Assembly: GCA_019456075.1 (NCBI GenBank)
Contig: VRUN01000009.1
Span: 1 to 40,590 of the forward strand
Direction: 5' to 3'
Source of the DNA: Candidatus Methylomirabilota bacterium
GTDB taxonomy: Bacteria; Methylomirabilota; Methylomirabilia; Methylomirabilales; CSP1-5
Length of the DNA stretch: 40,590 bases
Every line of letters begins with the position of its first letter. The stretch's first letter is position 1. This document shows, one piece after another, positions 3,953 through 40,033 of this stretch. The notes beneath the pieces were generated by a model. It saw nothing but the letters and a program-made list of their open reading frames with translations. It was not told where the DNA came from and did no database searches. The position numbers were made by a program, and so were the translations under genes.

Positions 3953-5389
3953 ATGGCTACCCGAGAGCAGCATCCGGGTCTCCTCCTCCGCCAAATCCCC
4001 GCCGTCGATGAAGTCCTCCAAGAGCCGGTCGTCCAGCGGCTCCTTGAGGCACACCCCCGGTGGGTGGTAGTCGAGGCGGTCCGGGAGACCCTTGAGGAGC
4101 GCCGGCAGCACGTGCTGGCCCTCCTTCGCGAGGGGACGGAGGCCTCCGTCCCCGATCTCGCCACCCTCATCGAGCAGGTCCGCATCAAGGTCCTGGACCG
4201 GGCGCGCCCGAGCCTGCGCCGAGTCATCAATGCCACCGGGGTCATCCTCCACACGAACCTGGGTCGAGCGCCTCTTTCCCCCGAGGCCCAAGCCCGCCTG
4301 CAAGAGGTCGCACAGCACTACTCGACCCTGGAATTCGAACTCCGGGAAGGGACCCGGGGCTCTCGCCAGGTGCACGTCGAGGGGCTCCTGACCCGCCTCA
4401 CGGGGGCCGAAGCGGCCCTGGCGGTGAACAACAACGCCGCCGCAGTCCTTTTGAGCATCAATACGATGGCCGAAGGTCGAGAGGTGGTCGTCTCCCGGGG
4501 AGAGTTGATAGAGATCGGCGGTTCCTTCCGGATCCCGGATGTCATGCGAAAGGGAGGCGGGATCCTCAGGGAGGTGGGGACCACCAACCGGACCCACCTC
4601 AAAGACTACGAAGCGGCGATTGGCGACGGGACGGCCCTTCTCCTGAAGGTTCACCCGAGTAACTTTCAGATGGTCGGCTTCACCAGCGAGGTCTCCCTGA
4701 CGGACCTCGTGGGTTTGGGCCGGCGGCGGGGCGTCCCCGTAATGATGGACGCAGGAAGCGGCGCCCTCACGGATTTCACCCCCTTCGGCCTCAAGGGGGA
4801 ACCGACAGTCCAGGAAACCCTGAGGAGCGGGGTGGATCTGGTCACCTTCAGTGGGGACAAGCTGCTGGGAGGACCCCAGGCAGGGTTAGTCGTAGGGGGG
4901 AAGGTTTTGATCGAGCGCCTCCGGAAGAACGCGCTGGCGCGCGCCGTTCGCATTGACAAGCTCTCTCTCGCCGCTCTCGAGGCCACCCTCCGAGGCTATC
5001 TGGAAGGGGAGAAAGGGGTCGGCACGATTCCCGCCGTGGCGATGATCACCTGCTCGCTCGCAGAGATCCGGCAGCGAGCAGAGCGCGTGCAAGCTGGCTT
5101 GCAAGAGCAGGCACATTCATCGATCCAGGTGGGTATAGAGGAGCACCGGTCGGAAGTGGGAGGGGGGGCGCTTCCCGCTGAGAGCCTCGCGACCTATTGT
5201 GTCACGCTTCACTCACCGCGGGTCTCCCCCCATCGACTGGAGGCGGCGCTGCGCGGTGCAGATCCAGCGGTGGTGGGGCGGATCAAAGGAGAGAAGGTCC
5301 TCCTCGATCTCAGGACCGTCCGGGAGGAAGAGGTGACGCTTTTGATCGAGGCCGTCGGCCCAATCCTTGCAAGCGAGATCGGCTCATGA
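3953..5389 (+). CDS. selA: L-seryl-tRNA(Sec) selenium transferase SelA
   Basis: SelA is the PLP-dependent enzyme that converts seryl-tRNA(Sec) to selenocysteyl-tRNA(Sec) using selenophosphate. At 478 aa it has the full family length. It shows an N-terminal helical tRNA-binding part (1-85), RVINATGVILHTNLGRAPLS (90-109), a substrate and PLP pocket with AVNNNAAAVLL and MMDAGSGA, and the PLP lysine Lys303 in TFSGDKLLGGPQAG. Its own promoter and terminator-bounded start suggest independent expression. selB, selD and tRNA-Sec are not in the window, and I found no selC-like tRNA in the flanks. Its presence means some UGA codons in this genome encode selenocysteine. Confidence 0.95.
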   Translation: MATREQHPGLLLRQIPAVDEVLQEPVVQRLLEAHPRWVVVEAVRETLEERRQHVLALLREGTEASVPDLATLIEQVRIKVLDRARPSLRRVINATGVILHTNLGRAPLSPEAQARLQEVAQHYSTLEFELREGTRGSRQVHVEGLLTRLTGAEAALAVNNNAAAVLLSINTMAEGREVVVSRGELIEIGGSFRIPDVMRKGGGILREVGTTNRTHLKDYEAAIGDGTALLLKVHPSNFQMVGFTSEVSLTDLVGLGRRRGVPVMMDAGSGALTDFTPFGLKGEPTVQETLRSGVDLVTFSGDKLLGGPQAGLVVGGKVLIERLRKNALARAVRIDKLSLAALEATLRGYLEGEKGVGTIPAVAMITCSLAEIRQRAERVQAGLQEQAHSSIQVGIEEHRSEVGGGALPAESLATYCVTLHSPRVSPHRLEAALRGADPAVVGRIKGEKVLLDLRTVREEEVTLLIEAVGPILASEIGS

Positions 5390-10302: not shown

Positions 10303-10651
10303 TGATGCGAGCCTCCCATTCCGCCGCTACTGTAGCAACGAACGTGCCAAAGGGAAGGTTCCCTTGCGGGGGAAGTCTGTGGCGTGATAACGTCCCTCCC
10401 AAGGATGCAATACGGGACAGCACATTCGGCCCCTCGCTCCGGGCCTCTCCGCAAGAGCCCGGAACCCTTCGGGCCCGCGGCGACCCTGGTCGGTCCGAAA
10501 GCCTTCGGACTCCCGGCATGTCGCTCGGCGCCTCCAGGTGCTGTCTCCTTCCGCCGGGGAAGACCCACTCGCCGAATCCTCCCCGGTCCGACGGCCATCG
10601 GGAGGAGCGGAGCGAGGGGCGTGCACCTCTTCACGGCTGGGGTTTCGTACC
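10303..10651. other. Intergenic stretch (349 bp) before the FetA-like gene
   Basis: Apart from repeat copy A and the inverted 12-mers CCCCTCGCTCCG (10430-10441) and CGGAGCGAGGGG (10608-10619), I see no coding region that stands up. The open frames here are GC-driven and have no recognisable protein features. Confidence 0.5.
10418..10543 (-). repeat. Dispersed intergenic repeat, copy A
   Basis: On the minus strand this stretch matches 22119-22230 on the plus strand. The best-conserved core is 10476-10543 against 22119-22187, nearly base for base over about 68 bp. A second conserved block, GGAGCGAGG followed by GCCGAA, lies after a length difference. The core holds the near-palindrome GTCCGAAAGCCTTCGGAC (10493-10510). 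Copy A adds another hairpin, GCCCGGAACCCTTCGGGC. The two copies lie in opposite orientations in two unrelated intergenic regions. Confidence 0.75.
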
Positions 10652-22027: not shown

Positions 22028-22118
22028 TCATCCCCCAGATCGCGTGTGTTCGATCATTCTCTGCACCTTCCAAGCTATCCGTGCCTTCTCGATAAAGTCA
22101 AGTGTCTTCGGAAAGCAG

Positions 22119-22230
22119 CAGCACCTGCAGGCTCCGAGCGACATTGCCGGAAGTCCGAAGGCCTTCGGACCGCTCAGGGTCGCCGCGCAAGGCCAGGAGC
22201 GAGGAGCCGAAGGCGCTGCCGCAACAGAAT
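22119..22230 (+). repeat. Dispersed intergenic repeat, copy B
   Basis: This is the counterpart of the repeat at 10418-10543 on the other strand. The core 22119-22187 contains a perfect 18-bp palindrome, GTCCGAAGGCCTTCGGAC (22153-22170). The shared region goes on through GGCC, GGAGCGAGG, GCCGAA and GCTG, with small length changes. It lies in the gap upstream of the FNR gene. Confidence 0.75.
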
Positions 22231-22517
22231 CAAGATGAATCCGGAAGCCGAGGGAGGGGCGGATTCGCGAGGAAGGCGGAACCTGGTTTGCGGCTCCGAA
22301 CAAGTTCAGAGAGCGAAGCGCAGGTGGGGGTAGTATCCCGTTGACCGAGGACCGATCACCGATGGCAGAAAGAACCTTTTGATCTTGACGGTCGCCGGAC
22401 TTCGGCGAGCTCCCTTCGGGTCTGAGCCTCAGGGTCGAAGACAGTCGAGCCGTCGTCCGTCATCGGTCACCGGGCCAGGAGCGGGGGGTTTGCGGGTGCT
22501 GCTTGGGAAAAGAAAGC
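22231..22517. other. Intergenic stretch downstream of repeat copy B
   Basis: The 543-bp gap between the FNR gene and the DUF4139 gene holds the repeat copy B, then this stretch, then a terminator. I see no credible coding region here. A short imperfect inversion, ACCGATCACCGAT and ATCGGTCACCGG, flanks its middle. Confidence 0.45.
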
Positions 22518-39112: not shown

Positions 39113-40033
39113 TTATTCGGCCGTGCCCGATGTGGCCGCCGCTTCCTTCAACTGCACCTGGAACGGTTTGGTGGCCTCCCCCACATAGATCGAGCGATGA
39201 GGGAAGGGAATCTCGATCCCCTCGGCGTCAAAGGCCTTCTTCAGTCGGCGGCGATACTCCCGCCCCACGCCCCACTGTTGAATCGGAAGCGTCTTGAGCC
39301 GAGCCTTTATAATCACTGCGGAATCCGCGAATTCATCCACCCCGAAAATCTCAATGGGTTCCAGGATCATCGGGCCTAGGGTAGGATCCTGTCGCAGCTC
39401 ATCGCCCACGCGCCGCATGACCTCGACAACGTGGTCGGTGTCCTCCTTGTACGCCACGCCCACATCCATGACATAACCCGACCACACCTTTGTCATGTTG
39501 GACAGCGTATTGATCGTGCCGTTAGGAAAGATGTGGACAATCCCCGAAAGGTCCCGAAGCACGATGGTTCGGAAGGTGATCACCTCGACGAGCCCCCCTG
39601 TCCCGTTGACGATAGCGACATCGCCGACCCGCACCTGGTCTTCCAGCACCAGGAAGAATCAGCTGATCAGGTCGCGGACGAGGTTCTGCGCGCCAAAGCC
39701 TACAGCCAGCCCCATAATCCCGGCACCGGCCAGGATCGGGGTGACGTTCAATCCGATTTGCTCCAGCGTAATGATCACAACCACCGCCCACAGGCCGACG
39801 AGCGCGATCGTGCGGAGCATGCCTACCAATGTCGATACCCGTTTTTTCGCTGCCCCGGGAACAGCCTCGGTCCTCTCTCCCGCCATAATGAGCGCCGACT
39901 CGAGACGACCTAGGCCAAGCCGGAGAAGGCGGGCGCCGACATAGCCCGCAATCAGGATTAATCCTATGCGGAGCGCGGCTGCCCCCGTGTTGACCAGAAA
40001 CGGCGTGAGCGTCTCCATAGATATTTCCGTCAT
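39113..40033 (-). pseudogene. mscS: MscS-family mechanosensitive channel interrupted by in-frame TGA
   Basis: Read from ATG at 40033 (GGGAGGGG upstream), codon 125 (39661-39659) is TGA. Before it the protein reads through VGFGAQNLVRDLIS; after it the same frame continues FFLVLEDQVRVGDVAIV to the stop at 39113, giving 306 codons in all. MscS proteins normally have Gly here (LISGFF). The N-terminal part has membrane helices, and the C-terminal part has the cytoplasmic beta and alpha-beta domains. A GGA to TGA change would produce the stop. This could be a nonsense mutation, a sequencing error or a recoded codon. The product, if full, is a turgor-release channel. Confidence 0.8.

Follow-up and report, generated by a model that had tools for sequence, protein, structure and literature searches.

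How a UGA codon should be read when it interrupts an otherwise undamaged gene, in an organism that inserts selenocysteine at UGA, is the question raised by a gene for a MscS-family mechanosensitive channel (mscS) in a member of the NC10 genus to which CSP1-5 and MAG-BB-18 belong. The gene lies on a contig of exactly 40590 bases, referred to here as the window. A preliminary description made from the letters of the window had proposed that the stop was very recent, an assembly error, or read through, and had raised the possibility of selenocysteine. We conclude, with a probability of about 0.7, that this mscS is a null allele created by a recent, lineage-specific nonsense mutation, whether as a young pseudogene or as a polymorphic null. 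Everything points to an ordinary nonsense allele or an error rather than to a new reading of the code.

An in-frame UGA at an invariant glycine

On the minus strand, the mscS frame runs from an ATG at 40033 to a TAA at 39115-39113 and comprises the following features.

39113..40033, minus strand: mscS frame, 306 codons plus TAA, broken at codon 125
39659..39661, minus strand: in-frame TGA at codon 125, the site of an otherwise invariant glycine equivalent to G121 of Escherichia coli MscS
39662..40033, minus strand: open part 5' of the TGA, 124 codons, matching Pfam MS_channel_1st (TM2/TM3) only
39116..39658, minus strand: part 3' of the TGA, 181 codons with the beta and C-terminal domains and with no frameshifts or extra stops

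Both the position of the TGA and the intactness of the frame on its two sides are as originally described. When codon 125 is translated as a residue, the frame matches PF21088, PF00924, and PF21082 above cut-off and so carries all three MscS Pfam domains (TM2/3, beta, and C-terminal). The halves also match separately, residues 1-124 to the TM2/3 domain and the post-stop part to the beta and C-terminal domains; the truncated product is without PF00924 and PF21082.

Glycine is invariant at the interrupted site. Among the loci first collected, all 86 MscS-clade homologues have Gly at this position, encoded across the set by all four Gly codons, and the three rows with another residue are distant paralogues of 27% identity. 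Another 24 homologues from the NC10 phylum were examined, all of them with Gly, and neither Cys nor a stop occurs at the site in any of the 110 family homologues checked (86 + 24). The alleles nearest to the window copy (L084, L085, and L004) have GGA at this codon, and the two closest of all share 92% amino acid identity with the window copy. In the solved structures 3T9N and 3UDC the aligned residue is likewise Gly, and in E. coli MscS it is Gly121. In the E. coli channel, G121 has been described as a kink in the pore helix TM3 (PMC4560390).

A search of 95 NC10-phylum genomes at E<=1e-50 recovered a close copy of mscS from 30 and none from the other 65. A stop lies inside the gene in only 1 of the 30, the window genome, and the other 29 carry the gene free of any premature stop. 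The window genome (G000) encodes two other MscS-family proteins, on contigs C99 and C77.

A probable recent exchange of the allele and the age of the stop

New in this analysis is that the mscS allele looks to have been exchanged recently with the lineage of two sister genomes, G003 and G006.

39114..39985, minus strand: tract of high identity to G003 and G006, with flanks about 78% identical and ends that are approximate

The mscS DNA is 94% identical to that of both sisters, whereas the ntrC-like gene and other neighbors of mscS match the same G003 contig at only about 77-80% identity. Synonymous divergence makes the same point, with a dS to the sisters of 0.10-0.125 for mscS versus 0.82-0.97 for three neighboring genes; the dS of mscS relative to G001 is 0.68, which is the usual level. 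Because the differences from the sisters cluster in the first 20 codons (13 of 60, against at most 5 in each later 20-codon block), one end of the tract is placed near codon 20-24; the other end coincides with the mscS stop codon. The simplest reading of these patterns is that the allele would have moved by recent homologous exchange between the lineages, in either direction.

Unless it is an error, the stop postdates the split from the allele of the sisters. The lack of decay downstream, on which the preliminary description had leaned, is real insofar as all 181 codons are free of frameshifts and further stops, although with about eight changes to judge by it is weak evidence and shows only that the allele is young. 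Those roughly eight polarized, lineage-specific substitutions downstream of the stop (five nonsynonymous and three synonymous) fit selection and neutrality alike. Pairwise dN/dS values relative to the sisters, which rest on few changes, are 0.34 and 0.60 downstream and 0.27 and 0.32 upstream. Against the null reading stand the lack of any further disabling mutation and a downstream dN/dS below 1.

The vicinity of the gene also differs in arrangement. In G003, about 4 kb that are absent from the window lie between mscS and the ntrC-like gene (L104:9425-13586, L106); in the window the ends of these two genes are 40 bases apart. Elsewhere in the window, at about 22110-22510 and 10425-10543, there are short dispersed repeats of 60-120 bases, up to 99% identical, which are common to many other contigs of the genome and to genus relatives.

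The sequence of events that we favor is as follows. A lineage-specific G-to-T change would have converted the Gly125 codon, GGA in the closest alleles, to a UGA stop. Translation would then halt after TM3A, where TM3B starts, and leave a membrane fragment of 124 residues that lacks the beta domain and the cytoplasmic cage. Judged by this domain content, the fragment could form no heptameric channel, and the copy would be a null allele. We infer that the organism itself carries the TGA and that it makes no full-length MscS. The gene itself would be dispensable in this organism: its loss is probably tolerable because two further MscS-family proteins are encoded and because 65 of the 95 phylum genomes manage without a close copy. 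Intact homologous copies are likely to be in circulation, given the recent exchange by recombination with the G003/G006 lineage.

A consensus error as the main rival

The main rival to a nonsense allele is an error of consensus or assembly, because the distance from the TGA to the contig end is about 930 bases. Here the organism would have a Gly codon and a normal channel, and the metagenome-derived contig would simply carry a wrong base. A single substitution in a frame that is otherwise undamaged is what such an error would leave, and the closeness of the tract to another lineage's allele means that mixed reads could have misled the assembler. No sequence overlapping the end of the contig turned up in a search of the sampled loci.

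The general quality of the assembly bears on this. A scan for coding frames split by one stop, covering 434 kb in stretches of the window genome at a sensitivity of about 83%, returned 42 pairs of same-frame segments, and by eye all of these were adjacent genes except mscS and an AhpC/TSA thioredoxin-like gene that is considered below. Since no second unexplained interrupted gene was found in the 434 kb, the nonsense error rate is low, and a generally high rate was discarded as an explanation. A true nonsense mutation, moreover, requires no special assumption. We regard an error as unlikely, although it is the leading alternative. The earlier proposal is supported as far as a recent stop or an error is concerned; its third element, read-through, is not.

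Could the UGA be decoded?

It is quite improbable that the UGA is decoded at all, by selenocysteine or by a leaky tRNA, to give full-length MscS with a substituted residue at the TM3 kink. A change of code across the genome was rejected, in agreement with the preliminary description, because other genes terminate at TGA, with unrelated sequence beyond, and because the 434-kb scan gave no second unexplained case. UGA still serves as a stop, and no tRNA-Gly with a UCA anticodon, as expected under genetic code table 25, was found in the incomplete set of tRNAs recovered.

Local read-through, in which UGA is read by a suppressor or near-cognate tRNA and some full-length channel results, is consistent with the intact downstream frame, the dN/dS below 1, and the small number of lineage-specific changes. 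Against it, the five nonsynonymous and three synonymous lineage changes do not demonstrate constraint, the UGA is present in no relative (1 of 30 genomes), and nothing comparable turned up in the 434 kb. No suppressor was seen among 29 tRNAs plus tRNA-Sec, a set that is incomplete (tRNA-Gly(UCC) is among those missing), and within that set the UCA anticodon is borne by tRNA-Sec only. A suppressor tRNA in this genome is thus unlikely, and read-through by such means very improbable.

For selenocysteine, the full machinery is present.

3953..5389, plus strand: selA, L-seryl-tRNA(Sec) selenium transferase (TIGR00474, 600 bits against a cut-off of 267.9)

The genome also carries selB, tRNA-Sec (selC), and selD, and the recoding of UGA that had been deduced from selA alone does take place in this organism, which decodes UGA as selenocysteine in two other genes.

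L137 (G000:C101:1915-2838): SelD with UGA at the active site, present in 7 of 7 genus genomes
L132:6776-7303 (G000:C96): AhpC/TSA thioredoxin-like gene with UGA at the redox position, motif NFWHSGUPGC

In SelD a strong hairpin carries its GUG loop some 33 nt past the UGA. The UGA of the thioredoxin-like gene is conserved in 6 of 7 genus genomes, and 17 nt past it comes the GUC loop of a 6-bp hairpin; this selenoprotein gene is probably misannotated as truncated. Distant thioredoxin-like matches with one TGA each, at G000:C9:552-935 and G001:C4:64268-64735, are further candidates for selenoproteins of the genus. Formate dehydrogenase was dropped as a control, as the search found no FDH-N alpha and the Fdh-alpha matches in the genome were sub-threshold and without stops.

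Measured against these internal controls, mscS has none of the hallmarks of a selenoprotein. In a published survey, candidates needed two or more homologues with Cys, and a TGA seen in one sequence only was set aside because it might be a sequencing error (PMC1088965), an exclusion that also speaks for an error here. The mscS UGA is just such a single-sequence case, found in no further genome, in contrast to the conserved UGAs of the controls, and it aligns with Cys or Sec in none of the 110 homologues, all of which have Gly. The residue is a helix-kink glycine and not a redox site.

There remains the hairpin that follows the stop, on which any selenocysteine insertion would depend.

39634..39653, minus strand: 6-bp hairpin CCUGGU / ACCAGG with the 8-nt loop GCUGGAAG, 5 nt after the TGA (stem 39653-39648 / 39639-39634)

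This stem had been correctly located, and the suspicion that its loop was nearer than in classical SECIS elements was well-founded: the apical loop starts some 11 nt past the UGA, nearer than in SelD and the thioredoxin-like gene, where small GU-bearing loops lie at SECIS distance. In the bSECISearch model the apical loop is small, contains a G, and lies about 16-37 nt past the UGA. The stable hairpin of mscS falls outside this range, and inside it there are only loose 4-bp stems, of a sort found at 78% of random codons. In its favor, the hairpin of the window, at -15.9 kcal/mol, is more stable than those of three relatives, at about -11 kcal/mol; however, at 23% of random codons in the window genome a stem of 6 bp or more begins no further than 8 nt downstream, and the folding energy is reached at 25% of them. 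A SECIS reading was rejected after folding against this random-codon background and the controls, and the hairpin is likely due to chance. With no Cys homologue, no SECIS geometry, and a UGA in one genome only, a channel with selenocysteine at residue 125 is highly improbable.

Equally improbable is a split channel, in which translation would stop at the UGA and reinitiate at a GTG (39649), 9 nt after the stop codon, which opens a 178-codon frame with the beta and C-terminal domains, so that membrane and soluble cage parts assemble: the GTG is the family's usual Val codon, nothing like a Shine-Dalgarno sequence was seen by eye ahead of it, the break would fall within the pore helix TM3B, and no relative has a split mscS.

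Relation to known systems and significance

The closest parallels to a null mscS are the nonsense pseudogenes and polymorphic nulls of dispensable bacterial genes, with which it shares one stop in one genome, an otherwise intact frame, a dispensable family, and intact relatives. It differs from them in lying within a recently exchanged tract, which leaves the kind unchanged. With bacterial selenoproteins, such as SelD and the AhpC/TSA thioredoxin-like protein of the same genome, it shares an in-frame UGA followed by a hairpin in a genome with selA, selB, and tRNA-Sec, but its UGA replaces Gly rather than a redox Cys/Sec, its hairpin is too near, and no relative has the UGA. The UGA-to-Gly reassignment of SR1 and Gracilibacteria (code 25) likewise involves UGA at a Gly codon; unlike those organisms, the window genome has many genes ending in TGA, no UCA-anticodon Gly-tRNA that could be found, and no further case in the 434 kb.

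If the UGA were read as an amino acid at the kink glycine, the product would be a selenoprotein without a redox role, which would be surprising and which the evidence opposes. A UGA within an open frame of a selenocysteine-decoding genome is not evidence for recoding, and internal positive controls are what tell such cases apart. If the stop is real, this mscS would be a recently arisen null version of the gene for an osmotic safety valve, exchanged between NC10 lineages, and would illustrate gene loss and exchange on a small scale.
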